Of a stretch of DNA of 64,000 bases, positions 24,262 through 54,412 are shown in pieces. The notes under the pieces were generated by a model that was given only the letters and a program-made list of their open reading frames with translations, was not told the DNA's origin and searched no databases. The number at the start of each line of letters is the position of its first letter. Position 1 is the first letter of the stretch. Origin of the DNA: Catellatospora sp. TT07R-123 (lineage in GTDB: Bacteria; Actinomycetota; Actinomycetes; Mycobacteriales; Micromonosporaceae); contig NZ_BNEM01000001.1 of NCBI RefSeq assembly GCF_018327705.1, forward strand, positions 310,001-374,000, in the 5' to 3' direction. The position numbers and the translations under genes are program-made.

Positions 24262-26934
24262 CTACGGTGCGGCGACCCGGTCGCCGGGGCGGGCGTCGGC
24301 ATGGGACGTGCCGCCGAGCGCGTGGCGGGCATAGGCGCGCACGTCGGCGTCGCCGTCGGCCAGCGCGTCCGCGAGCGCCGGGGCGAACAGGTCGCGGTGC
24401 GGTGCCATCGCCCGCACCGCGGCCTTGCGGACGTCGGCGTTGACGTCGGTGGCCAGCACGGTCAGCTCGGCGGCGGCGGCCGGGCCGAGCGCGGCGGCGG
24501 CACCGGCGCGGACCTGCCAGGCGGGATCGGCGACCGCCCCCAGCGCCAGTGCGGTCAGCGTGTCGTCCGGACCGGCCGCAGCCGAGGCGAACGCGGCGGC
24601 GCGCACCAGCGGCTCGGCGTCGACGGCCAGCCGGGCCAGGACCTCGGGGGCGCCGACGGTCCGCAGGCCGTGCGCGACGGCGACGCGTACCTCGCGGTCG
24701 GGGTCGGCGGCCGCCTGCGCCAGCCCGGCCCCGTCGTCGAGCCGGACCAGGCCGAGCACGGCCTTGAGGCGCACCTCGACGTCGTCGTCGGCGTGGCAGC
24801 CGCGGAACTGCGCGGCGGTGCCCTCACCGGTCAGGCGCAGCAGGTCCAGGCCGATCGCGCGGACGGTGGGATCGGTGCTGCCCAGGGCGGTGTGCAGGGC
24901 CAGCCCGGTCGGCAGGACGTCGGCCAGCTCCTGCAGCCCGGCCACGGCCGCGGCCCGAACCAGCTGGTCCTGGTCGGACAGTGCGCGCACGAGCGTGGCG
25001 GGGGTGCCCGGCGGCGCCGCCTCGACGAGCGCGACCAGGGCGGTGCGGCGCACCTCGGGGTCCTCGTCGGCGAGGTAGGGCTCGAACGCGTCCAGGGCCG
25101 GGTCCTGCTCGGCCAGCCGGACCACCTCCAGCAGCCGCCGCGTGGCCTTGGCGGTGGTGGCCCGGGCGGCCGGGCCGGTCACCGCCGTACGGTAGGCGGC
25201 CACCGGCGCCGCGAGCACCTGCGGCGGCGCGGCGACGGGGGTGAACCCGTCGACGGGCACCAGGTAGTCGGCGACGGGTCGTTTGAGGAACTCCATCCGC
25301 CCGTCGGCTCCCTTGCGCAGGTTGAGGTGGAACAGCCACTGCTCGTCGTCGCGCGAGGTGTGGTCCAGGCGCTGGTGGTACAGGCCCCAGCGGCTCTCGG
25401 TGCGGGTGAGTGAGGCCCGGGCGGCCATCTCGGCGCAGTCGCGGATGAACGTCACCTCCACGCAGCGCATCAGCTCGTGCGGGGTGCGGGCGCCCAGCCG
25501 GTCGATGTCGGCGCGGATGCGCTCGAACGCCTCGACGGCGAGGTCGAGCTTGGCCGCCGACTTGGGCGGGGCGACGTACTCGTTGACGAACCGGCGCAGC
25601 TTGTATTCGACCTGCTGCTGGGGCAGGCCGTCCGGGTTGCGCAGGGGGCGGTAGACCAGCTCGTGGGCGGCCTCGATCTGGTCGAGCGGCAGCGGGGCGG
25701 CGGCGGTGTCCAGCCCGGCGGCGTGGGTGCCGGCGAGGTCGCCGAAGACGAACGCGCCGATCATGTAGTTGTGCGGCACGCAGGCCAGGTCGCCCGCGGC
25801 GTACAGGCCGGGCACGGTGGTGGCGCCGTGCTCGTCGACCCACACCCCGGAGGCGGAGTGGCCGCCGCACAGGCCGATCTCGGAGATGTGCATCTCGACG
25901 TCGTGGGTGCGGTAGTCGTGGCCGCGCCCGGCGTGGAAGGTGCCGCGGGTGGGCCGCTCGGTGGTGTGCAGGATGGCTTCGAGCCGGGAGATCGTCTCCT
26001 CGGGCAGGTGGGTGAGTTTGAGGTAGACCGGTGCGCGGTCGGTGCCCAGCTCGCGGGCCACCTCGGCCATCATCTGGCCCGACCAGTAGTCGGAGTCGAC
26101 GAACCGCTGCCCCCGGTTGTTGACCTGGTAGCCGCCGAACGGGTTGGCGACGTACGCGCAGGCCGGGCCGTTGTAGTCCTTGATCAGCGGGTTGATCTGG
26201 AAGCACTCGATGCCGGACAGCTCGGCTCCGGCGTGATACGCCATGGAGTGGCCGTCGCCGGCGTTGGTCGGGTTCTCGTACGTGCCGTACAGGTAGCCGC
26301 TGGCGGGCAGGCCGAGCCGGCCGCTGGCGCCGGTCGCGAGGATCACCGCCCTGGCCGACACCGTCGCGAACTCGCCGGTGCGGGTGTGCAGCGCGGCCAC
26401 TCCGGCGGCGCGGCCGCCGGCGGTCAGCACCCGCACCGGCATCAGCCGGTTCTCGATCCGGATCCGGTCGCGCATGCGGCGTTCGCGCAGCACCCGGTAG
26501 AGCACCTTCTTGATGTCGCGGCCCTCGGGCATGGGCAGCACGTAGCTGCCGGAACGGTGCACCTGGCGCACCGCGTACTCCCCGTAGGCGTCCTTCTCGA
26601 ACTTGACGCCGTAGCCCTCCAGCCGCCGCACCATGTCGTAGCCGCGGCTGGCGGTCTGATAGACCGTCTTCTGGTTCACGATCCCGTCGTTGGCCAGCGT
26701 GATCTCGCGTACGTAGTCCTCCGGGACGGCCTTTCCGGGGATGACGGCGTTGTTGACGCCGTCCATGCCCATCGCGAGCGCTCCGGAGTGGCGCACGTGC
26801 GCCTTCTCCAGCACGATCACCCGGGCGCCGTGCTCGGCCGCGGACAGGGCCGCCATCGTCCCGGCCGTCCCTCCGCCGACCACGACGACGTCGCAGTCGA
26901 GCTGGAGGCGGTCGGTCAGGCTCGCAGGCTGCAT
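24262..26934 (-). CDS. AprA-like FAD flavoprotein with C-terminal HEAT repeats
   Basis: The 890-residue protein starts at 26934 (MQPASLTD), overlapping the ATPase by 19 bases. Residues 14-540 form a fumarate-reductase/adenylylsulfate-reductase flavoprotein: FAD motif CDVVVVGGGTAGTMAALSA, GALAMGMDGVNNAV, then EMHISEIGLCGGHSASGVW and VPGLYAAGDLACVPHNY. The last blocks resemble dissimilatory AprA (EMHASEI, GSHSG) more than fumarate reductase. From about residue 560 to the end run roughly ten HEAT-like helices (DPEVRRTALVALV, DREVRVAVAHGL, NADVRKAAVRAMA). With the adjacent AprB-like ferredoxin it probably reduces or oxidises a sulfur oxyanion; the substrate is not established. Confidence 0.82.
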   Translation of the reverse strand: MQPASLTDRLQLDCDVVVVGGGTAGTMAALSAAEHGARVIVLEKAHVRHSGALAMGMDGVNNAVIPGKAVPEDYVREITLANDGIVNQKTVYQTASRGYDMVRRLEGYGVKFEKDAYGEYAVRQVHRSGSYVLPMPEGRDIKKVLYRVLRERRMRDRIRIENRLMPVRVLTAGGRAAGVAALHTRTGEFATVSARAVILATGASGRLGLPASGYLYGTYENPTNAGDGHSMAYHAGAELSGIECFQINPLIKDYNGPACAYVANPFGGYQVNNRGQRFVDSDYWSGQMMAEVARELGTDRAPVYLKLTHLPEETISRLEAILHTTERPTRGTFHAGRGHDYRTHDVEMHISEIGLCGGHSASGVWVDEHGATTVPGLYAAGDLACVPHNYMIGAFVFGDLAGTHAAGLDTAAAPLPLDQIEAAHELVYRPLRNPDGLPQQQVEYKLRRFVNEYVAPPKSAAKLDLAVEAFERIRADIDRLGARTPHELMRCVEVTFIRDCAEMAARASLTRTESRWGLYHQRLDHTSRDDEQWLFHLNLRKGADGRMEFLKRPVADYLVPVDGFTPVAAPPQVLAAPVAAYRTAVTGPAARATTAKATRRLLEVVRLAEQDPALDAFEPYLADEDPEVRRTALVALVEAAPPGTPATLVRALSDQDQLVRAAAVAGLQELADVLPTGLALHTALGSTDPTVRAIGLDLLRLTGEGTAAQFRGCHADDDVEVRLKAVLGLVRLDDGAGLAQAAADPDREVRVAVAHGLRTVGAPEVLARLAVDAEPLVRAAAFASAAAGPDDTLTALALGAVADPAWQVRAGAAAALGPAAAAELTVLATDVNADVRKAAVRAMAPHRDLFAPALADALADGDADVRAYARHALGGTSHADARPGDRVAAP

Positions 26935-28438: not shown

Positions 28439-29838
28439 GCCCCCTCCACGGCCTGGGCGTAGGTCACGACGCGGGCGCCAGGGTGGGCGGCGGTGTAGGC
28501 GTCGGCGGCGGAGCGGGTCACGAACGGTTTGAAGCGCTCGTCGGCTGGGGCGGCCGGGTCCACGACCCACAGGCTCCGGTCGGCGAACCAGCGGGTGCCG
28601 GTGGTCGCGTCGGGCACGTAGGCCGCGCGCGGCTTCTCCTTGCGTACGGCCCGCAGCAGGCACGTCGGGGTCGCGGCCGGTTTCGTCCGGTCGGCGCCGA
28701 CGGGCCACAGCTCACCGGCGAGCGCGGGGTCGGTGACCGGCCGGCCGCACACCTCGTCGGTGCCGGTGATCGCGGCCCGGTTCGCGGTGCTGGCGAAGTC
28801 GGCGTCGTACTGGTCGCCGTAGACGGCCCTGAGGTAGCTGTCGTCGACGAACGCGGCCAGGTCGATGGACTGGAGCACGCCGATCGACTTCAGAAACGGC
28901 ACGTCGTGCGCGTGCGCGTCGCGCAGCGCCTGCTTGAGCTGCACGTCGAAGGTGACCTGGCCGCCCGCGCCGTTGTAGAGGTAGACCACCTCCGGCGGCA
29001 GGCCGGTCGCGTCGGCGACGCTCTTCGCGGCGGCCAGCGGGTCGGCCCACAGGAACCTCGTCGCGTCGATCTGCGCCTTCAGGAACGCCTTGACCACGTC
29101 GGCGTGGTCCTTGGCGTACGCCTCGCGCACCACGACGCCGTGGAACGTGGGCACCTTCAGGTCGCCGCCGTCGTAGAGCGGCTGCGCCTCGCCCCGGTGC
29201 ACCAGCAGGGCGGGCCAGGCCACGAACTGCGACAGCGCGGCGACGTTGCCCGCTTGCAGCGCCGAGGCGCCGACCTGCGGAACCTGGTTCTCCACCTTGA
29301 CATCGGCGACGCCGTAGCGCTCCAGGGCCTGCACGAGGGTGCCGTGGGCGGCCGAGCCGACGCTGGTGGACACGGCCCTGCCCTGGAGATCGGCCAGGCT
29401 GGTGATCTTCGACGCCGGGGTGGTCACCACCATGTTCAGCGCGCCCCGGATGTTGAACCCGGTCGCCGAGATCAGCTTGGTACGGGTCTCGGCGTTCTGC
29501 TGGCCGCGGGAGCCGTTGATGAGCAGCGGGTAGTCCCCCATCGACCCGATGTCGATCTTCCCGGCGATCATCTGGGCCGTGATCGGCGCACCGGTGTCGT
29601 AGTCCTGCCACACCACCTGGAACTTCCTGCCGGCGATCTCGGCCAGCCGCTTCTCGAAGAAGCCCTGGGCCTTGAGCAGCGTCCCGGCGGTGACCGTGTT
29701 GATGGTCTTGGACTGGTAGCCGACCACCACCCGCTCGGCGTCGCCGTCGGCGGCGGCGCCCGCGACCGTGCAGCCGCTCGTCGCCGTTAGCGCGGCGGTC
29801 AGCGCGAGTATCGCGATCCTGCGCATCTGGGGTCTCAT
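28435..29838 (-). CDS. Sulfonate-type binding lipoprotein fused to a NosL-like domain
   Basis: The 467-residue precursor starts at 29838, overlapping the ferredoxin stop (ATGA). It has a lipobox (TSGC near residue 22) and an SsuA/TauA-like domain to about residue 345: VVVGYQSKTINTVTAGTL, VVWQDYDTGAPITAQMIAG. The remaining ~110 residues are extra. They contain DEVCGRPVTD, PTCLLRAVRKEK, AAYVPDATTGTRWFADRSLW and RFKPFVTRSAADAYTAAHPG, a pattern like NosL copper-chaperone domains (Cys-Gly, then His/Asp-Tyr, then PF and a late Gly). It may bind a metal or a metal-complexed ligand outside the cell. Confidence 0.82.
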   Translation of the reverse strand: MRPQMRRIAILALTAALTATSGCTVAGAAADGDAERVVVGYQSKTINTVTAGTLLKAQGFFEKRLAEIAGRKFQVVWQDYDTGAPITAQMIAGKIDIGSMGDYPLLINGSRGQQNAETRTKLISATGFNIRGALNMVVTTPASKITSLADLQGRAVSTSVGSAAHGTLVQALERYGVADVKVENQVPQVGASALQAGNVAALSQFVAWPALLVHRGEAQPLYDGGDLKVPTFHGVVVREAYAKDHADVVKAFLKAQIDATRFLWADPLAAAKSVADATGLPPEVVYLYNGAGGQVTFDVQLKQALRDAHAHDVPFLKSIGVLQSIDLAAFVDDSYLRAVYGDQYDADFASTANRAAITGTDEVCGRPVTDPALAGELWPVGADRTKPAATPTCLLRAVRKEKPRAAYVPDATTGTRWFADRSLWVVDPAAPADERFKPFVTRSAADAYTAAHPGARVVTYAQAVEGA

Positions 29839-30062
29839 CTCAGGAGGTAGGGCATGTTGACGGTGACGGCGCCGGTGGGGCAGCGGGCCGCGCACGGGCC
29901 GCAGTACCAGCACTCGTCGACGTGCATGTAGGCCTTGCCGCTCGCGGGGTCGATGGCGAGGGAGTCGAGCGGGCAGACGTCGACGCACAGGGTGCAGCCG
30001 TCGATGCACAGGTCCGGGTCGACGATGACCGGGAGGTCGACGCGCTGGTCGGCCAGTGCCAT
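29835..30062 (-). CDS. AprB-like ferredoxin with two [4Fe-4S] motifs
   Basis: The 75-residue protein has two cluster motifs: CIDGCTLCVDVCP (about residues 19-31) and CWYCGPCAARCP (about 51-62). The second follows KAYMHVDE, the layout of the iron-sulfur part of adenylylsulfate reductase beta subunits, and it lacks AprB's C-terminal tail. It starts two bases after the GntR stop and overlaps the binding-protein gene. It presumably feeds electrons to the AprA-like flavoprotein five genes downstream; the electron donor is unknown. Confidence 0.88.
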   Translation of the reverse strand: MALADQRVDLPVIVDPDLCIDGCTLCVDVCPLDSLAIDPASGKAYMHVDECWYCGPCAARCPTGAVTVNMPYLLR

Positions 30063-40647: not shown

Positions 40648-41364
40648 CTACCGGGCCGGGGACCGCCCCGGCACCGGGCGGCCCGCGGCGGCAGGACCCT
40701 GCCGCAGTCGGGCGATACCGGCGAGGATGAGGTCGACCCCGGCGAGGAACTGGGCCCGGTCGTCGTGGTCGGCCAGCTGGCCGGCGATGTCGCGCAGGAA
40801 CGGGTACTCGTCCGGGTCGAGGTTCGCCCACACGGCCGACTCGGTTTCCAGCAGTGCGGTGCGGTCGGTGCCCGACTGCTGGGTGCGGGCGTTGGCGGCG
40901 TTCTGCCCGCCGACGCCGAGAATGTAGTTGAGCAGCGCCGACGCCGAGGTGAACTGGTCACCGGCGGGCACGCCGAGTGCCTGGACCTGCCGGCCGATCC
41001 GTTCGAAGATCTGGCGCATGACCGGCTGCGCCGGGGCGCGTGCGAGCTGCGTACCGATCCAGGGATGGTCGTCGATGGCGTCGAAGACGCCGAGCGCGAC
41101 CGCCCGGATCGCGTCCTCCGGCGCGCCCTGGGCGGTGGTGGTCGCGTCGGCCAGGACGGCGCCGGTGGCCGCGGCGAGCAGTTCGTCCTTGTTCGCCACG
41201 TGCCAGTAGATCGCACCGGGGCCGGTCTTCAGCTGCGTGCTGAGGGCCCGGAAGGTCAGCCCGCCCTCCCCGGCGGTGTCGAGCAGCGCGACGGCGGCCG
41301 CCACGATGCGCTCCCGGGACAGGGCGTCGCCTCGCCGCCCTGTGTCCTGCGCCCCACCTGCCAT
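40648..41364 (-). CDS. TetR-family repressor
   Basis: The 238-residue protein has an N-terminal HTH (LTFRALSTQLKTGPGAIYWHVANKDELL, about residues 36-63) and a TetR_C_1-like helical effector domain. It is divergent from an MFS exporter, and the gap contains two copies of TGGAAC-N3-GTTCCA. It most probably represses both genes and is released by the exported compound, whose identity is unknown. Confidence 0.9.
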   Translation of the reverse strand: MAGGAQDTGRRGDALSRERIVAAAVALLDTAGEGGLTFRALSTQLKTGPGAIYWHVANKDELLAAATGAVLADATTTAQGAPEDAIRAVALGVFDAIDDHPWIGTQLARAPAQPVMRQIFERIGRQVQALGVPAGDQFTSASALLNYILGVGGQNAANARTQQSGTDRTALLETESAVWANLDPDEYPFLRDIAGQLADHDDRAQFLAGVDLILAGIARLRQGPAAAGRPVPGRSPAR

Positions 41365-41383: not shown

Positions 41384-41428
41384 TGGAACGCCGTTCCAAA
41401 CTAGGTCGGGCCATGGAACAGTGTTCCA
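41384..41428. promoter_or_regulatory. Twin TetR operators
   Basis: The 15-bp dyad TGGAAC-N3-GTTCCA occurs at 41384-41398 and again at 41414-41428. They are exactly 30 bp apart, about three helical turns, in the TetR/MFS divergent promoter region. Confidence 0.75.
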
Positions 41429-41486: not shown

Positions 41487-42950
41487 ATGAGTGTCGATGT
41501 GCTGGACGTGCGCGGGAAGGCGCGCGCCACCTCGCTGCGGGCCGTGTGGCCCGCGATCCTCGGGCTGTCGGTCGTCTTCCTGGTGGAGATGCTCGACAAC
41601 TCCGTGCTGAACGTCGCCCTGCCGACCATCGCGCGCGAACTGAACGCCTCCGCCTCGGACCTCCAGTGGATCACCACCGGGTATTCGCTGCTCTTCGGCG
41701 GCCTGATGATCGCCTTCGGCGCCATCGCCGACCGGTACGGGACCCGACGCGTCATGCTGCTCGGCCTGGGCCTGTTCGCGCTGGCCAGCCTCACCGTGCT
41801 GGCGGTGCGCACGCCCGGCGAGCTCGTCGCCGTCCGCGCCGCGGTCGGCGTCACCGCCGCCATGACCGCGCCCGGGACCATGGCGCTGTGCTTCCGCCTG
41901 TTCGACCAGGACAACCTGCTGATGCGCTCGACCGCGTTCATCTCCACGGTCGGCCTGGTCGGCCTGGCCGTGGGACCGACCGTGGGCGGCCTGGTCCTCC
42001 AGGTCCTGCCCTGGCAGACGCTGCTGGTGATGAACGTGCCCGTCGCCGTGCTCGCGGTGGTGTGCATCCGCTACGGCATCCCGGCCGACGACCCCGCGCA
42101 GCGCAACAAGGCACCGCTGGACCTGCTCGGCGCCCTGCTGGGAACAGCCACGATCATCCTCGCGCTGTGGACGGCCACCCTCGCCGTCGAGGCCGGCTGG
42201 GGCCGCCCGGCGCCGTGGCTGGCCGGTGCCGGCGCGCTCGCCTGCGCCACCGGCTTCGTCATCCGCGAGCGGACCACGGCACACCCGATGTTCGACTTCG
42301 CCGTGCTGCGGCGCCCGCAGGTCTCGGCCGGCCTGGCCTACCAGGCGGCGATCGGCCTCGGCATGGCGGTGCTCGCCTTCAGCGTCTCGCTCCAGCTGCA
42401 ACTCGCCTGGGGATGGTCGCCGGCCGCGGCCGCGCTCGGCAACCTCCCGCAGGTCATCACCATGATCGCGGTCGGCCCGTTCGTGGAGAAGCTCGTCGAC
42501 CGGATCGGCACCCGCCGCGCCGGACCGCTCGGCTCGGCGGCGGTCGTCGCGGGCCTGCTCCTGTACGCCCTGCTCGGCCGGTACGACTACGGGTGGATCG
42601 CCGTGGCGCTCGTGCTCACCTCCGCCGGCATGCGCGTGGTCATGGTCATCGCGAGCGTCACCGTGATGCGGGGCTTCCCCGAGGACCAGACCTCCATCGC
42701 CGCCGCCCTCAACGACACCGGCCAGGAGGTCGCCAGCAGCATCGGCATGGCGGTCACCGGCACCGTCGTCGCCGCCGCGCTCACCGGCTCACTCGCCGAC
42801 CTCGGCAGCAGCGCGACCGGCGTGCGCACCTTCGAGAACGCCGTCACCGCCGCGTCCCTGGCCCTCACCGCCGTGTGCGCCGCGCTCGTCTTCTGGGCGG
42901 CACGTCGCGGCGCCGGGGCGGCCGCCGACAGCGCGACCGCACCGGCGTAG
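41487..42950 (+). CDS. MFS multidrug exporter (DHA2 type, 14 spans)
   Basis: The 487-residue protein has about 14 membrane spans and the DHA2 hallmarks VVFLVEMLDNSVLNVALPTI (motif D1), LQWITTGYSLLFGGLMIAFG, GAIADRYGTRRVML (motif A) and GLVGLAVGPTVGGLVLQ (motif C). ATG 41487 follows GAAGGAA. It would export a drug or metabolite using the proton gradient, under control of the adjacent TetR. Its end converges on the aldolase operon with a gap of only 10 bp. Confidence 0.92.
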   Translation: MSVDVLDVRGKARATSLRAVWPAILGLSVVFLVEMLDNSVLNVALPTIARELNASASDLQWITTGYSLLFGGLMIAFGAIADRYGTRRVMLLGLGLFALASLTVLAVRTPGELVAVRAAVGVTAAMTAPGTMALCFRLFDQDNLLMRSTAFISTVGLVGLAVGPTVGGLVLQVLPWQTLLVMNVPVAVLAVVCIRYGIPADDPAQRNKAPLDLLGALLGTATIILALWTATLAVEAGWGRPAPWLAGAGALACATGFVIRERTTAHPMFDFAVLRRPQVSAGLAYQAAIGLGMAVLAFSVSLQLQLAWGWSPAAAALGNLPQVITMIAVGPFVEKLVDRIGTRRAGPLGSAAVVAGLLLYALLGRYDYGWIAVALVLTSAGMRVVMVIASVTVMRGFPEDQTSIAAALNDTGQEVASSIGMAVTGTVVAAALTGSLADLGSSATGVRTFENAVTAASLALTAVCAALVFWAARRGAGAAADSATAPA

Positions 42951-42960
42951 CGCGCCGTGC

Positions 42961-43776
42961 TCAGTGCAGGACGTCGGGCTGGTCGGCGACGATCTCCTGG
43001 CGCAGCGGCTGGAACCGCGCCCAGCCGACGTCCGGCCGCTCCTCCTGCGACCGCGTCCGCACCGCCACCGCGTGCGGGATGGGCCGCAGCTCGCCCGCGG
43101 CGGCCGCGATCAGCTGCACCTGGGCCGCGCGTTCGGCGTGGACGAACAGCGTGACCGCGTCCTCGACGCTGGTGCCGACGGTCAGGAACCCGTGGTTGGC
43201 CAGGATCGCGGTGTGGGCCAGGCCCATGGCCGCCGCGATCCTGGCGCCCTCGGACACGTCCAGCACGACGCCGGTGAAGTCGGGCACCAGCACGTTGCGC
43301 TCGTAGAAGATCGCGGCGTCCTGGGTGATCGGCTGGAGTTCCCCGTGCAGCGCCGCGAGGGCCTTGCCGTGGACAGAGTGGCTGTGCGCGACGGACACCG
43401 CGTCGGGCCGGGCGGCGTAGATCTGCGAGTGGATCGCGAAGGCCGCCGGGTTGAGCGCGCCGCGGCCGTGGACGATCTCGCCGTGCGGGTCCATGAGCAG
43501 CAGGTCGCTGACGCGGATGCGGCTGAAGGCGATGCCGTACGGGTTGAGCCAGAAGTGGTCGCGCAGCTCCGGGTCGCGGACGGTGATGTGCCCGGCCGTC
43601 ATCTCGTTCAGGCCGAGCCGGGCGAAGATCCGAAAACCCACGGCCAGCGCCTGCCTGCGTGCGTCCCGTTCCTGCGCCGCGGTGGCGCAGACGGGCCGGG
43701 TGAACGGCTCGGCCGGGCGGGGCCGCAGGCCGGCGGTGAAGGTCGGCGGCGGGACTGCCGTCGTCTCGGTTCCCAT
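42961..43776 (-). CDS. Class II aldolase/adducin-family protein
   Basis: The 271-residue protein has the class II aldolase fold with metal-binding histidines in SVAHSHSVHGKALA (about residues 128-141) and LANHGFLTVG (about 190). The family includes fuculose-phosphate aldolases and decarboxylases; phosphate-binding residues are not obvious, so the substrate may not be a sugar phosphate. It is the last gene of a tight five-cistron operon, starting one base after the preceding stop. Confidence 0.85.
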   Translation of the reverse strand: MGTETTAVPPPTFTAGLRPRPAEPFTRPVCATAAQERDARRQALAVGFRIFARLGLNEMTAGHITVRDPELRDHFWLNPYGIAFSRIRVSDLLLMDPHGEIVHGRGALNPAAFAIHSQIYAARPDAVSVAHSHSVHGKALAALHGELQPITQDAAIFYERNVLVPDFTGVVLDVSEGARIAAAMGLAHTAILANHGFLTVGTSVEDAVTLFVHAERAAQVQLIAAAAGELRPIPHAVAVRTRSQEERPDVGWARFQPLRQEIVADQPDVLH

Positions 43777-43777
43777 G

Positions 43778-44617
43778 TCACTGCTCCCCGGTCGTGGTGA
43801 GGATGAGCTGCGCGGCGATGAGCGTCTCGGTCATGGAGGCCTCGACCTCGGCCAGGATCGCGCCGGCCTGCCCGGGGTGCCGCCGGGCATCGGGCACCCA
43901 GCGCGGGTAGAGGTCGTTGGCCCGGACGTCGAGCAGGATGGCGGTCAGCCGGTCGCAGGTCTGGGCCGCGACCGGCCGGGCCGGTGCCGAGGCGGTACGG
44001 CGTACGGCGAAGAAGGCGTCGAAGAGGTCCTCGGCGTGCGGCGGGTCGGCGGGCTGGTCCGGTGCCGCCGTCGCGTGCCGGCGGAACAGGGAGACGCCGT
44101 CGGGCACCAGCGTGCGGGCCACCGCGATGTGCGCGCGGCCGTTGCGGCGGCCCGCCAGCCGGTACGCGGTCAGCGGGGCCGGGTCGGCGTCCTGCCACCG
44201 GTGCGTCAGCGCTTCGGCGCAGCGTACGAGGGCGCGGTGGTCGCGCGACCACTTTCCGGAGAAGGCGGGGTGGAAACGGTGCATCACCGGGCGGATGGCG
44301 TCCTCGTAGATGCGCCGGGGGCAGGACCCGCAGTAGAGCAGCAGCGCGGTGTAGGCGTCGGTGAGATCGGCAGCCGCCTGGAGCAGCGACGGGGTCCGGT
44401 GCTCGGCGGCCCGGGTGAGCAGGCCGCGCATGCACGTCCAGATCCCGATCGTCGCCTGGTGCCCGGTCATCCAGCGGGCCCAGTAGAGCCGCTCGGCGGC
44501 GTGCGCGGGCTCGAACAGCGGCGGCGTGAGGGTGTCGTCGGCGACGGCGGCCGGGTCGGCGGGCAGGTACAGGGGCTCGGTCGCGGTGCGGTGCGGTGGT
44601 GCGCTGTTGACGGTCAT
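43778..44617 (-). CDS. Protein resembling heme-dependent L-tyrosine hydroxylases
   Basis: The 279-residue protein resembles the LmbB2/Orf13-type L-tyrosine 3-hydroxylases of anthramycin and lincomycin pathways. The resembling blocks are RLYWARWMTGHQATIGIWTC near residue 42, ALLLYCGSCPRRIYEDAIRP and MHRFHPAFSGKWSRDHRALV. Those enzymes bind heme through His and use peroxide to hydroxylate tyrosine. The similarity is from memory of the family pattern, so the assignment is tentative. It overlaps both neighbours in the operon and sits with a VOC-domain protein, a pairing also found in those tyrosine pathways. Confidence 0.5.
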   Translation of the reverse strand: MTVNSAPPHRTATEPLYLPADPAAVADDTLTPPLFEPAHAAERLYWARWMTGHQATIGIWTCMRGLLTRAAEHRTPSLLQAAADLTDAYTALLLYCGSCPRRIYEDAIRPVMHRFHPAFSGKWSRDHRALVRCAEALTHRWQDADPAPLTAYRLAGRRNGRAHIAVARTLVPDGVSLFRRHATAAPDQPADPPHAEDLFDAFFAVRRTASAPARPVAAQTCDRLTAILLDVRANDLYPRWVPDARRHPGQAGAILAEVEASMTETLIAAQLILTTTGEQ

Positions 44618-45552
44618 GGGTGCTCCAGAACCTCTGTCCGCAGGTCGCCGGAGCGGGGCTGCACGGCGGCGGTGCGGAGGTGTCCGCGTACTGCGTCGAG
44701 CAGCTGGCGGTCGCCGGCGGCGACGGCCTCCCGGGTCCGGCCGGCGTAGCGGGCGATGACACGGCAGCGGGGCAGGGCCTCCAGCTCGGGCCGGCGGCCG
44801 GCGGCGGCCACCAGGTCGAACACGGCATGGGCGCGGCCGGTGGGCCATACCGCGGCGAACTCTGCGAACGGGAACGGCACGCCGATGGTCGTGACCACCA
44901 GCAGCGTGTCCGCGGCGGCGGCGGTGCGCAGCCCGGCCCCGTCCACGACCGCGCGGCCGGCGGGGGTGTGGATCGACACCACGTCGCTGCCGCCGAGCAG
45001 TTCGTCGGCGCAGGCGTAGGCGCAGGGGCCCGGATCGGCCACCGGGCCGCGGCTGTGGTGGTAGCGGACGGTCATGCCCAGCCCGGACGCCGCCGTCGCG
45101 ACCCGGCGGCCGACGTGCCCGAGCCCGATCAGGCCGAGCGTGCGGCCGCGCAGCTCCCCGGCCAGGCCTGCGCCGGTGTCGCGCTGGAGGTGGGTGAGCA
45201 TCGCGGCGAGGACGAACTCGGCGGTGGCGTTGTCGGCGTACCGGTCGATGGTGGTGACCGTGATACCCCGCGCCCGCGCCGCGGCGTGGTCGACCCGGCG
45301 CGACGACGTCGAGCGCAGCCCGATGTAGCGCAGCGCCGGAAGCGCCGCCAGCTCGGTCGCGCCCAGGTCGTGGTGCCAGCCGCCGATGACGGCGTCGACC
45401 GATTCGGGCAGGCGGGCTCCGGGCCACGTGCCCGGTTCGGCCAGCGGCGCCGCGGACAGCGCCCGCAGCGCGCCGTAGGTGTCCGCCCGCAGGTCCAGGC
45501 CCGGCAGCACGGCGATGTGCCGGAACCCGGGGCTCGGGATGGCGCCGTTCAT
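44614..45552 (-). CDS. 2-hydroxyacid-dehydrogenase homologue lacking its catalytic triad
   Basis: The 312-residue protein has the D-isomer-specific 2-hydroxyacid dehydrogenase architecture: LPALRYIGLRSTSSRRVDHA, NATAEFVLAAMLTHL and the NAD motif TLGLIGLGHVGRRVATA near residue 150. The catalytic Arg (usual N-x-x-R-G) is replaced in VVTTIGVPF. The Glu of the D-V-F-x-x-E-P loop is missing in AVFDLVAAAG, and the usual P-H is RVIARYAGRT. It may bind NAD without normal activity. It overlaps its neighbours by four bases at each end. Confidence 0.8.
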   Translation of the reverse strand: MNGAIPSPGFRHIAVLPGLDLRADTYGALRALSAAPLAEPGTWPGARLPESVDAVIGGWHHDLGATELAALPALRYIGLRSTSSRRVDHAAARARGITVTTIDRYADNATAEFVLAAMLTHLQRDTGAGLAGELRGRTLGLIGLGHVGRRVATAASGLGMTVRYHHSRGPVADPGPCAYACADELLGGSDVVSIHTPAGRAVVDGAGLRTAAAADTLLVVTTIGVPFPFAEFAAVWPTGRAHAVFDLVAAAGRRPELEALPRCRVIARYAGRTREAVAAGDRQLLDAVRGHLRTAAVQPRSGDLRTEVLEHP

Positions 45553-46499
45553 CGACCGGTGCCCGGGATGTAGGCGAATTCGAACTCCAGGCCGTTGGGG
45601 TCCAGGGCGTAGAAGCTCTCCACACCGTCGTCGTCGACGACGACGGCCGTGGCCGGTTCGTCGCGGGCGAAGGTGAACTGCCGGGAGTCGTACAGCGCGA
45701 GCCAGTGGTCGCGCCGCTCGACCAGCGCGGCCGAGCTGGCCGTACGCAGGCACACGTGCTGGAACTGCGCGGCGGTGCCGGCCGGCGGCTCGTTCCTCGT
45801 CGAGGCGCGTTCGAACAGGTGGAACCGCAGGTCGCCGACGACCAGCTCGGACAGGGCGGTGATACCGGGCAGGCGCTCGTGGGTCAGGGGCGAGAACCGG
45901 TCCAGCGACCAGGCCAGCGTCGCGCCGAAGTAGGCGGTGTACCAGGCGACCGAGTTGGCCAGGTCACCGGTCTGCACGGCCACGTGGTGCAGGGCGACCT
46001 CGGCCGGCGGGCGGCGCAGGCCGCGTCTGATGTCCAGCTCGTGGTGCCTGATCTCGTGGGCGCTGATGCGGGCCAGCCGCAGCCGGTCGACCATGCCCCA
46101 GGACGGGTGCGCCGTCCGCGTGTCGGCGGGTGCGGCGAGGGCCGCGTCGCACCACTGCGCCGCGGCCGAGGCCAGCGCTCGCAGGCCCACCGGGACGGAG
46201 AACGGCGACCGCGCGCGCACCTCGTCGATGACGAGATCGGCCGACCAGGCGATGACCCCGGCGTCCGGGTCGAGCGTCAGGGTCCACATGCGTTCGGTGC
46301 CGTAGCGCAGGACGTCCACCATGTGCCACAGGTACTGGGCCGGGGACCACACCCCGGCAACGGGGTCGGCCGGCGACGCCGCGGCGAAGGCGGTCCGGCA
46401 GTGGTCGGCGGTCGCGGCCACGACGGCGACGGCGTCGTCGAACGCGATGGCCCAGTCGAAGCCGCACTCCGGGCAGGGGTCGGTGTCACCGTGTTTCAT
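45549..46499 (-). CDS. DinB-like / VOC-domain fusion protein
   Basis: The 316-residue protein has an N-terminal DinB-like four-helix domain (about residues 15-175: WSPAQYLWHMVDVLRYG, ARISAHEIRHHELDIRRG), with His residues placed for metal, and a C-terminal VOC/glyoxalase domain (about 180-310). VOC ligands are visible: HHVAVQTGDLANSVAWY, QHVCLRT and DPNGLEFEFAY (His, His, Glu). In lincomycin-type pathways a VOC dioxygenase cleaves DOPA, so a ring-cleaving role is conceivable. The start at 46499 overlaps the stop of a 16-residue ORF. Confidence 0.8.
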   Translation of the reverse strand: MKHGDTDPCPECGFDWAIAFDDAVAVVAATADHCRTAFAAASPADPVAGVWSPAQYLWHMVDVLRYGTERMWTLTLDPDAGVIAWSADLVIDEVRARSPFSVPVGLRALASAAAQWCDAALAAPADTRTAHPSWGMVDRLRLARISAHEIRHHELDIRRGLRRPPAEVALHHVAVQTGDLANSVAWYTAYFGATLAWSLDRFSPLTHERLPGITALSELVVGDLRFHLFERASTRNEPPAGTAAQFQHVCLRTASSAALVERRDHWLALYDSRQFTFARDEPATAVVVDDDGVESFYALDPNGLEFEFAYIPGTGR

Positions 46500-46546
46500 G
46501 CCAGGCTGCGCCGCACGTGCGGGACCGGGGGTGCCGAGGTCTGCAT
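46496..46546 (-). CDS. 16-residue peptide at the head of the aldolase operon
   Basis: ATG 46546 follows an AGAGGAAA box and encodes MQTSAPPVPHVRRSLA. The TGA overlaps the ATG of the DinB-VOC gene (ATGA). The arrangement, with a good ribosome-binding site and full coupling, suggests it is translated. It could be a ribosome-loading leader or a tiny precursor peptide acted on by the operon's enzymes. No homologue is known to me. Confidence 0.45.
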   Translation of the reverse strand: MQTSAPPVPHVRRSLA

Positions 46547-46632
46547 GAGGGTTTCCTCTTTGGGCGAGGGATCGGGTCCGCCGGAAGACCGGCCGGCCCA
46601 ACGATCCGCCCGCGCCCGGGGCCGAGGAAGCT

Positions 46633-51964: not shown

Positions 51965-54412
51965 ATGGGTTTGGGTGTTCGGTTGAAGCAGAAGCTGCGC
52001 ACGTTCATGCAGCGCCCCGGTACGACGGTCAGTCTGGGTCGTTTTGAGGCGATCCTGCCGAGGATTCAGGAGCTGGAGGACGAGCTCACTGCGCTGACCG
52101 ACGCGGAGTTCACCGAGCGCGCGGTGATGCTGCGCGACATCGTCACCGGGACCGAGGAGGGGCAGCCGCGGGTCTTCACGGCGCAGCCGCTGCCCATCGA
52201 CGAGGAGGACATGGCCGAGATCTGCGCGCTGGGCCGCGAGGCCGGGCGGCGCGCTCTCGGCGAGCGCGCGTTCGACGTGCAGCTGCTCGGGGCGATGGCG
52301 ATGCTGCAGGGCAACGTCGTCGAGATGGCCACGGGTGAGGGCAAGACGCTGGCCGCGGTGATCGCCGCCTACGGCTTCGCCGTGCGCGGCTCCCGGGTGC
52401 AGGTGCTGACCGTCAACGACTACCTCGCCGACCGCGACGCGGACTGGATGGGCCCGGCGTACCGGCTGCTCGGGCTGACCGTGGGCGCCGTCGGCGAGGG
52501 CACCGGCCACGACGAGCGGGCGGCCGCGTACGGCTGCGACGTCACGTACGTGTCGGTGAGCGAGGCGGGGTTCGACTTCCTGCGCGACCAGCTGGTGCTC
52601 CGCGCCGAGGACGCGGTCATGCCCGGCATGTACACGGTGATCGTCGACGAGGCGGACTCGATCCTGATCGACGAGGCCCGGGTGCCGCTGGTGGTGGCGG
52701 GCAGCCTCGCCGACGGCGGCTCGGACGCGACCTCGGCCGCGGCGCTGGTGGCGGCGATGCGGCCGGGCCGCGACTTCGAGGTGATCGACGACGGCCGCAA
52801 CGTGCAGCTGACCGACACCGGGGCGGCGGTGGTGGAGCGGGCCTGGGGCGGCATCCAGCTGTACGCGCCGGAGAGCCTGCCCAAGCTGACCGCCGTCAAC
52901 CTGGCGCTGCACGCGCGGACGCTGGTGGCCGTGGACGTGGACTACATCGTCAAGGACGGGCGGATCGCGCTGGTCGACGAGTTCCGGGGCCGGGTCGCCC
53001 GCCGCCGGCGGTGGCCCGACGGGTTGCAGGCGGCGGTCGAGGCCAAGGAGGGCCTGGCGGCGACCGACGAGGGCGAGATCCTGGCCACGATCACCGTGCA
53101 GGGCCTGGTCGCGCTCTACCCGACGGTGGCGGGGATGACGGGCACGGCCTCGACCATCGGCGACGAGCTGCGCGAGTTCTACCGCCTGGAGGTCGCGGTC
53201 ATCCCGCCGAACACGCCGAACGTGCGGGTCGACGAGCAGGACCGGGTGTACGCGACGATCGAGGAGAAGGAGGAGGCGCTGATGGCCGAGGTGGCCTCAG
53301 CGCACGAGGCCGGCCGGCCGGTGCTGGTCGGCACCCTGGACGTGGCCGAGTCGGAGCGGATCGCGGCGGCGCTGCAGGACCACGGCATCGAGTGCGTGGT
53401 GCTCAACGCCAAGAACGACGCGCACGAGGCCGCGGTCATCGCCGAGGCCGGGCGGCTGGGTGCGGTCACGGTGTCGACGCAGATGGCCGGTCGGGGCACC
53501 GACATCCGGCTGGGCGGCAGCGACGGGCAGGACCGGGCGGCGGTGGCGGAGCTGGGCGGCCTGTACGTCGTCGGGGCGGGCCGGCACGACAGCCGCCGGG
53601 TCGACGACCAGCTGCGGGGCCGGGCGGGCCGGCAGGGCGACCCGGGCGGCTCGGTGTTCTTCGTCAGCCGCGAGGATGAGCTGATCGTGCGGCACGGTGA
53701 CGGGATCGGCGGGACGACCGCCGGGGACGGGCGGGTGACCGGCCCGGAGGTGCACTGGGCCGTGGGGCACGCGCAGCGGGTCGCCGAGGGCATCGGGTTC
53801 GAGATCCACCGCAACACGTGGCGCTACGGGGTGCTGATCGAGCGGCAGCGCCAGGTGCTGGCGCAGCGGCGTAAGGCGCTGCTGACCACCGGAGCCGCGG
53901 CGGAGCTGCTGCGCGGGGGCAAGAAGCTGTTCCCGGCCGATCGCGACGCGGTCGCCGACGCCGAGCTGTGGGCCGACGCCGACGACGAGCTGGAGATGGT
54001 CACGGTCGCGCAGCGCTACACCGAGGTCGTCGACGTGGTCGGCGAGCAGGCGCTCGAGGAGGTCGCGCGGCAGATCGCGCTGTACCACCTGGACCGCGGC
54101 TGGGCCGACCACCTGGGCATGCTGGCCAACGTGCGCGACGGGGTGCATCTGCGGGCGCTGGGGCGGCTGGACCCGCTGGACGAGTTCCACCGGGTCGCGG
54201 TGCCCGAGTTCGAGCAGCTGCTGGCCGACGTCGACGCCGCCACGGCGCAGACGTTCATGGCGGCGCGGATCGACAGCCCGGACTGGACGCCGGAGGACGC
54301 CGGGCTGGAGCGCCCGAGCGCCACGTGGACGTACATGGTCCACGACAACCCGTTCGGGTCGGAGATCGAGCGGCTGATCTCCCGGATGGCCAAGGCGCTG
54401 CTGGGCAAATGA
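51965..54412 (+). CDS. secA2: Accessory preprotein translocase ATPase SecA2
   Basis: The 815-residue protein has SecA motor motifs: MATGEGKTLAAVIAAYGF (Walker A, near residue 122), VDEADSILIDEARVPLV (DEAD-type Walker B and PPXD entry), VGTLDVAESERIAAAL and QMAGRGTDIRLGG (second motor). It lacks the C-terminal zinc-binding tail of housekeeping SecA and is shorter, which fits SecA2 of actinobacteria. It exports a subset of proteins with the SecYEG channel. It is followed at once by a perfect 19-bp terminator. Confidence 0.92.
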   Translation: MGLGVRLKQKLRTFMQRPGTTVSLGRFEAILPRIQELEDELTALTDAEFTERAVMLRDIVTGTEEGQPRVFTAQPLPIDEEDMAEICALGREAGRRALGERAFDVQLLGAMAMLQGNVVEMATGEGKTLAAVIAAYGFAVRGSRVQVLTVNDYLADRDADWMGPAYRLLGLTVGAVGEGTGHDERAAAYGCDVTYVSVSEAGFDFLRDQLVLRAEDAVMPGMYTVIVDEADSILIDEARVPLVVAGSLADGGSDATSAAALVAAMRPGRDFEVIDDGRNVQLTDTGAAVVERAWGGIQLYAPESLPKLTAVNLALHARTLVAVDVDYIVKDGRIALVDEFRGRVARRRRWPDGLQAAVEAKEGLAATDEGEILATITVQGLVALYPTVAGMTGTASTIGDELREFYRLEVAVIPPNTPNVRVDEQDRVYATIEEKEEALMAEVASAHEAGRPVLVGTLDVAESERIAAALQDHGIECVVLNAKNDAHEAAVIAEAGRLGAVTVSTQMAGRGTDIRLGGSDGQDRAAVAELGGLYVVGAGRHDSRRVDDQLRGRAGRQGDPGGSVFFVSREDELIVRHGDGIGGTTAGDGRVTGPEVHWAVGHAQRVAEGIGFEIHRNTWRYGVLIERQRQVLAQRRKALLTTGAAAELLRGGKKLFPADRDAVADAELWADADDELEMVTVAQRYTEVVDVVGEQALEEVARQIALYHLDRGWADHLGMLANVRDGVHLRALGRLDPLDEFHRVAVPEFEQLLADVDAATAQTFMAARIDSPDWTPEDAGLERPSATWTYMVHDNPFGSEIERLISRMAKALLGK

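Follow-up and report, generated by a model that had tools for sequence, protein, structure and literature searches.

A 64,000-nucleotide stretch of the genome of Catellatospora sp. TT07R-123 (contig NZ_BNEM01000001.1, positions 310,001 to 374,000; hereafter the window) contains a minus-strand operon of five tightly packed open reading frames (ORFs), which on balance probably encodes a compact variant of the front half of the 4-alkyl-L-proline pathway, i.e., one that is independent of a γ-glutamyltranspeptidase (γ-GT). How alkylproline biosynthesis trims ring-opened DOPA remained unexplained for a long time, until the step was assigned to a γ-GT homologue, an unlikely candidate for it. We found no description of the present variant in the searchable literature, which supports the proposal of a small undescribed pathway in an earlier note on this DNA. 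The operon runs from 46546 down to 42961, with a 16-codon ORF followed by four genes arranged head to tail in the same direction:

46496..46546, minus strand: putative leader ORF, MQTSAPPVPHVRRSLA, 16 codons with an ATG start; ATGA overlap between its stop and the following start codon
45549..46499, minus strand: DinB_2-VOC fusion, 316 amino acids; ATGA overlap with the peptide ORF
44614..45552, minus strand: altered D-2-hydroxyacid-dehydrogenase-fold protein, 312 amino acids; ATGA overlap with the fusion gene
43778..44617, minus strand: homologue of heme-dependent L-tyrosine hydroxylase (LmbB2/TyrH), 279 amino acids; ATGA overlap
42961..43776, minus strand: NovR/TqaM-related protein of the class II aldolase/adducin fold, 271 amino acids; 1-bp gap

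These coordinates bear out the arrangement given in the earlier note, i.e., three ATGA overlaps and a single 1-bp gap, the latter ahead of the class II aldolase-like gene. Homology identifies all four long ORFs as genuine genes.

The first two steps of the proposed pathway depend on the hydroxylase and on the VOC half of the fusion protein. No model in Pfam or NCBIfam matched the 279-residue protein. When it was compared with solved structures using phmmer, it matched SsTyrH, the heme-dependent L-tyrosine hydroxylase of Streptomyces sclerotialus (E = 6.2e-31), and in this alignment its H53 and H163 fell opposite histidines of SsTyrH. An alignment of 15 relatives showed that the invariant residues of the family were kept in the window protein, H163 among them, as was H53, which lies in a GHQ motif and is nearly invariant across the 15 sequences. 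An AlphaFold model built from two rows was too weak to judge the heme pocket (pLDDT 49); used as a Foldseek query, it gave four matches with E < 0.001, all of which were TyrH chains (top 7kqu and 7kqt), with tryptophan 2,3-dioxygenase far below them. The similarity to a heme-dependent aromatic oxygenase is clear, and the identification of an LmbB2/Orf13-like hydroxylase in the earlier note holds. We also observed a second TyrH-like family without a VOC gene (L023, L025, L026, L027, L028, L030 and L033), whose members adjoin a protein of about 503 residues resembling aromatic amino acid ammonia-lyase and another of about 220 residues.

In the fusion protein, Pfam recognized DinB_2 (2.5e-7) and Glyoxalase/VOC (5.8e-7) domains, with the DinB domain occupying approximately residues 1-160 and the VOC domain, a predicted L-DOPA 2,3-dioxygenase (DODA), residues 168-316. 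The VOC half matched the L-DOPA 2,3-dioxygenase SsDDO (6on1) with an E value of 2.7e-51, and was 44-55% identical to ten relatives. In the resulting 11-sequence alignment it kept the His, His and Glu ligands, bearing out the DOPA-cleaving domain that had been predicted, as well as the Thr, His and Tyr that have been named as key residues of L-DOPA dioxygenase (PMC12311729). Identity among the homologues of known clusters is 41-54% for LmbB1 and 31-43% for LmbB2 (PMC5519988). Because the catalytic residues are kept and the identities lie within the known range, we take the conversion of tyrosine via DOPA to 2,3-seco-DOPA/pyrroline as the core of the pathway. Strong homology, together with genome context, makes hydroxylation of tyrosine followed by opening of the DOPA ring highly probable.

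That context came from a comparison of 21 dioxygenase loci, drawn from sampled genomes of the order, class and phylum and from 355 genomes of the host family, 15 of which had a match. The hydroxylase gene adjoined the VOC dioxygenase gene at every one of the 21. Among the 18 ordinary loci, i.e., those without the altered dehydrogenase, an LmbA-type γ-GT was present within about 10 kb at 17, and an LmbY-type LLM reductase likewise at 17. The altered dehydrogenase occurred at the other three, in the window, in Actinoplanes utahensis NBRC 13244 (NZ_BOMZ01000077.1) and in G097, a genome of another family, and none of these three loci had an LmbA-type γ-GT or LmbY. Fisher's exact test gave p = 0.003, or p = 0.016 with two related nonribosomal peptide synthetase (NRPS) clusters counted once, values that are only a guide given that the loci are related by descent. 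The altered dehydrogenase surfaced by chance in a family-wide search, and only afterwards proved to lie beside the VOC and TyrH genes, so its association with them in A. utahensis and G097 is independent of the search route. The co-occurrence of genes on which the earlier note had laid weight was therefore observed both for the core pair and, at two further loci, for the altered dehydrogenase.

The two related NRPS clusters (L066/L067/L068/L069 in A. utahensis; L091, L032 and L092 in G097) contain DODA, TyrH, the altered dehydrogenase, a thiamine diphosphate (ThDP) decarboxylase-like gene and a TauD gene; in A. utahensis, a DDAH-like gene and a further TauD-type gene are also present. The ThDP decarboxylase-like gene adjoins that of the altered dehydrogenase, a placement that is suggestive only; its product may possibly be a different trimming enzyme.

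At the window locus itself we found no LmbA-type γ-GT, LmbY, LmbX or LmbW, and comparison with the NRPSs of other loci revealed no NRPS homologue in the window. These findings bear on a conservative explanation, in which the operon would supply ordinary 4-alkylproline by making an early intermediate, to be finished by an off-cluster γ-GT and LLM reductases, with the other two genes being accessory. Generic γ-GTs (33-40% identity) and LmbY-related LLM reductases (49-51%) do occur elsewhere in the genome, so that the absence of LmbY holds for the locus only. Since complementation of lmbA by a non-cluster γ-GT, LmbA2991, is known from S. lincolnensis (PMC5519988), a γ-GT acting in trans is also conceivable here. 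The one ordinary locus without an LmbA-type γ-GT nearby (L115, in G574 C223) has DODA, TyrH and an LmbY-type reductase with no γ-GT in about 49 kb of contig, and is possibly another γ-GT-independent or trans-acting case. The γ-GTs of the window genome, however, are generic only, the best being 33% identical to the LmbA type (E = 5e-39), compared with 57% in a congener with a canonical cluster. Further points against the explanation are that the window has no NRPS homologue by which an alkylproline could be used, that LmbX and LmbW are absent from the locus, and that the altered dehydrogenase is confined to loci without LmbA and LmbY (three of three, versus none of 18). We consider it improbable, slightly more so than the catabolic route discussed below.

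The altered dehydrogenase is the protein that marks these unusual loci. Pfam assigned 2-Hacid_dh_C to the 312-residue protein (5.8e-13), and its predicted fold was that of the 2-hydroxyacid dehydrogenase family (Foldseek, 5tx7, E = 1.6e-15). The Rossmann GxGxxG motif is kept, as GLGHVG. The Arg-Glu-His triad is fully replaced, and in the same way in the window, A. utahensis and G097 proteins: the NTxRG motif has lost its Arg and reads TTIG or TTLG, the Glu is absent, and a YAxRT motif lies at the expected His site. The description of this dehydrogenase as altered was thus correct. In addition, a segment of about 16-18 residues ahead of the Rossmann core is absent from all three proteins. A normal 2-keto-acid reductase was rejected because the triad is lost.

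The D-2-hydroxyacid dehydrogenase (D-2HADH) fold can reduce C=N, as in the imino acid reductase Bsp5 (6p2i; PMC11876095, citing JACS 2019). Given the loss of the triad, the intact nucleotide site and the presence of the protein at loci without LmbY, we favor reduction of a cyclic imine or conjugated bond. The altered dehydrogenase is quite possibly a reductase of the ring-opened product. When a two-row profile of this protein was run against 395 genomes of the class, only ordinary dehydrogenases with weak scores were recovered apart from the window. A contig search with the two-row alignment found only A. utahensis, although this used two short patterns, so that absence elsewhere is weak evidence. 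A similar contig search with the single hydroxylase sequence yielded no related loci, and neither the hydroxylase nor the altered dehydrogenase had a match in the plasmid collection.

The 271-residue product of the last gene had been labeled an aldolase. It matched Aldolase_II in Pfam (2.2e-44) and passed the cut-off of NCBIfam PRK06208, and its best solved matches were 4xxf (1.4e-53), NovR (4.5e-48) and TqaM (2.5e-36). Three histidines are present, at positions 131, 133 and 195, i.e., those of the HxH and NHG motifs. At the site that we take to be that of the catalytic Glu of FucA, it has Ala or Gly, as do 4xxf, NovR and TqaM. A plain FucA-type aldolase was rejected since this Glu is missing, and the label of the earlier note is not retained. 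NovR and CloR are three-His iron enzymes that carry out oxidative decarboxylation of an α-keto acid (PMC13111500). Because ring-opened DOPA carries an α-keto acid, we propose, by analogy and tentatively, that the protein trims the side chain in a NovR-like manner in place of LmbA.

The same protein lends itself to a catabolic explanation: during breakdown or detoxification of tyrosine, DOPA or a catechol, a decarboxylase or a genuine class II aldolase would split the hydrated ring-cleavage product, and the neighboring TetR/MFS pair would respond to aromatics. Its closest solved match, 4xxf, is annotated as a fuculose-1-phosphate aldolase, and a relative with 50% identity lies in a seemingly catabolic locus (L041, G651 C504), where it adjoins an ordinary 2-hydroxyacid dehydrogenase and a meta-cleavage-type α/β hydrolase. 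The missing FucA Glu argues the other way, as do the absence of amino-acid release genes at the window locus and the biosynthetic settings in which TyrH and DODA enzymes are known to occur (PMC5519988, PMC11791213). We regard a catabolic role as improbable.

The DinB half of the fusion keeps H59, H148 and H152 and a CPECGF start, features common to its relatives, and comparison with solved DinB proteins gave no detectable sequence match. MDMPI, a member of the DinB superfamily, isomerizes a ring-cleavage product with mycothiol, and this precedent, together with the DinB_2-type nature of LmbV, makes it plausible that the DinB half acts on the ring-opened product. The assignment of LmbV, a protein of lincomycin biosynthesis, to the DinB_2 type (PMC4351081) also qualifies the earlier note, in which the DinB fusion was placed outside the lincomycin pathway. 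By the same analogy the domain could be an isomerase, a more specific claim that we consider doubtful.

In the γ-GT-independent pathway that we favor, the TyrH homologue would hydroxylate L-tyrosine to L-DOPA, and the VOC domain would open the DOPA ring between C2 and C3. The 2,3-seco-DOPA so formed would close to a pyrroline imine or enamine with a CH=CH-CO-COOH side chain. For the subsequent steps we infer that the fused DinB domain, which is probably metal-binding and possibly thiol-dependent, might isomerize or hold the unstable ring-opened product; that the altered dehydrogenase-fold protein would act as an NAD(P)H reductase of the C=N or conjugated bond; and that the NovR/TqaM-like protein would shorten the α-keto-acid side chain by oxidative decarboxylation, replacing LmbA. 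These steps would yield a free amino acid of the proline or pyrroline type whose side chain is short and carboxylated, and which the neighboring MFS transporter may export. The most far-reaching version of this scheme is a second way of trimming ring-opened DOPA, independent of a γ-GT, in which an iron oxygenase with a class-II-aldolase fold would remove the oxalyl end by oxidative decarboxylation, a triad-less reductase of the 2-hydroxyacid dehydrogenase fold would replace the F420 enzyme, and DinB would handle the unstable ring-opened product; the outcome would be a free amino acid of the proline type, carboxylated and new. Taken as a whole, that combination is unlikely.

Several observations, in addition to the off-cluster γ-GTs and LLM reductases, the LmbA2991 precedent, the annotation of 4xxf and the catabolic relative described above, weigh against the proposed variant. 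The five-gene order, for which a search had been suggested in the earlier note, was not found in any other genome searched, and nor was the DinB-VOC fusion. The window hydroxylase forms a long tree branch outside the group of other VOC-linked hydroxylases. In the VIA fold comparison of the altered dehydrogenase, Bsp5 (Z 20.0, rmsd 8.1, 274 aligned) was tied with ordinary dehydrogenases such as 3ba1 (Z 20.1, rmsd 7.0, 271 aligned), and the profile match to Bsp5 (E = 1.4e-11) was not among the best matches. PRK06208, the subfamily of the aldolase-like protein, is broad and has uncharacterized members.

The 16-codon ORF at the head of the operon raises a different possibility, since the earlier note had suggested a peptide-derived product. 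A Shine-Dalgarno sequence, GAGGAA at 46553-46558, lies ahead of this ORF and is the first good one in the operon, while the ATG of the fusion gene has no visible Shine-Dalgarno sequence of its own; this suggests translational coupling, and the ORF looks like a coupling leader rather than a precursor. The encoded peptide is a putative gene product. Its first place in the operon and its own Shine-Dalgarno site would also be compatible with a precursor modified by the operon enzymes, as in ribosomally synthesized and post-translationally modified peptides (RiPPs). However, MQTSAPPVPHVRRSLA contains no Tyr, Phe, Trp or Cys, and on these grounds, with no RiPP enzymes seen, we rejected a precursor role. 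Moreover, free Tyr and DOPA are the substrates of the homologous enzymes (PMC5519988), and short ORFs with a Shine-Dalgarno sequence and a stop overlapping the next start were found at 4 of 150 gene starts tested (about 3%), this one alone having an ATG start. A RiPP-like product is thus highly improbable. A search by simple consensus revealed no promoter- or terminator-like site.

Next to the operon are two genes that the earlier note had mentioned:

41487..42950, plus strand: MFS transporter, convergent to the operon, with about 10 bp between the ends
40648..41364, minus strand: TetR regulator, divergent from the MFS gene

The pair is indeed adjacent, but the MFS gene is convergent to the operon, and both genes are at most possible partners of it. 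Two exact TGGAACNNNGTTCCA palindromes, at 41384-41398 and 41414-41428, lie between the TetR and MFS genes and are likely TetR operators. No further copy lies upstream of the operon, and shared TetR control was rejected because the operator-like palindromes occur only at the MFS/TetR promoters. The MFS protein is a possible exporter of the operon product. Elsewhere in the window, an 890-residue FAD/succinate-dehydrogenase-type flavoprotein with C-terminal HEAT repeats (24262-26934), an unusual fusion by Pfam, lies in the same gene run as a 75-residue 4Fe-4S ferredoxin (29835-30062). An 815-residue SecA homologue (51965-54412) and a P450 (50037-51209) downstream of an α-galactosidase gene were also seen, with no evidence linking either to the operon.

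With its first two steps retained and everything downstream exchanged, the locus offers a natural comparison, with which to ask whether other folds can carry out trimming and reduction. The missing later enzymes point to a small uncharacterized side-branch of a known antibiotic-building pathway. The triad-less dehydrogenase may serve as a marker for such pathways, having led to a type of NRPS cluster in A. utahensis and in another actinomycete.

The operon resembles the 4-alkyl-L-proline (ALDP/APD) pathway of lincomycin, hormaomycin and the pyrrolobenzodiazepines (LmbB2-LmbB1-LmbA-LmbX-LmbW-LmbY) in having a hydroxylase beside an L-DOPA 2,3-dioxygenase, within the same identity range. It differs in lacking an LmbA-type γ-GT, LmbY, LmbX and an NRPS at the locus and in having the DinB-VOC fusion, the altered dehydrogenase and the NovR-like protein. 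Because an LmbA-type γ-GT and LmbY were looked for at the locus and not found, the operon is not the ALDP pathway as defined, although it is alike for the first two steps. With the NRPS cluster of A. utahensis NBRC 13244 and its relative in G097 it shares the VOC protein, the hydroxylase, the altered dehydrogenase (38% identity, with the same lost triad) and the absence of a γ-GT at the locus, whereas those clusters have large NRPSs, the ThDP decarboxylase-like protein and TauD, and neither the DinB fusion nor a NovR-like protein. Compared by fold and profile, the altered dehydrogenase has the D-2HADH fold in common with Bsp5, an acyclic imino acid reductase, and no special sequence closeness to it, the TT[IL]G and YAxRT motifs being features of the former. 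The window DinB domain has a DinB_2 domain with conserved His residues like MDMPI and LmbV-type proteins, and differs from them in being fused to a ring-cleaving dioxygenase and in its lack of a sequence match to solved DinB proteins. Finally, the aldolase-like protein, for which a different substrate is expected and the likeness is a predicted one, shares its fold, its three-His site and the loss of the FucA Glu with TqaM and with NovR and CloR of novobiocin and clorobiocin biosynthesis.

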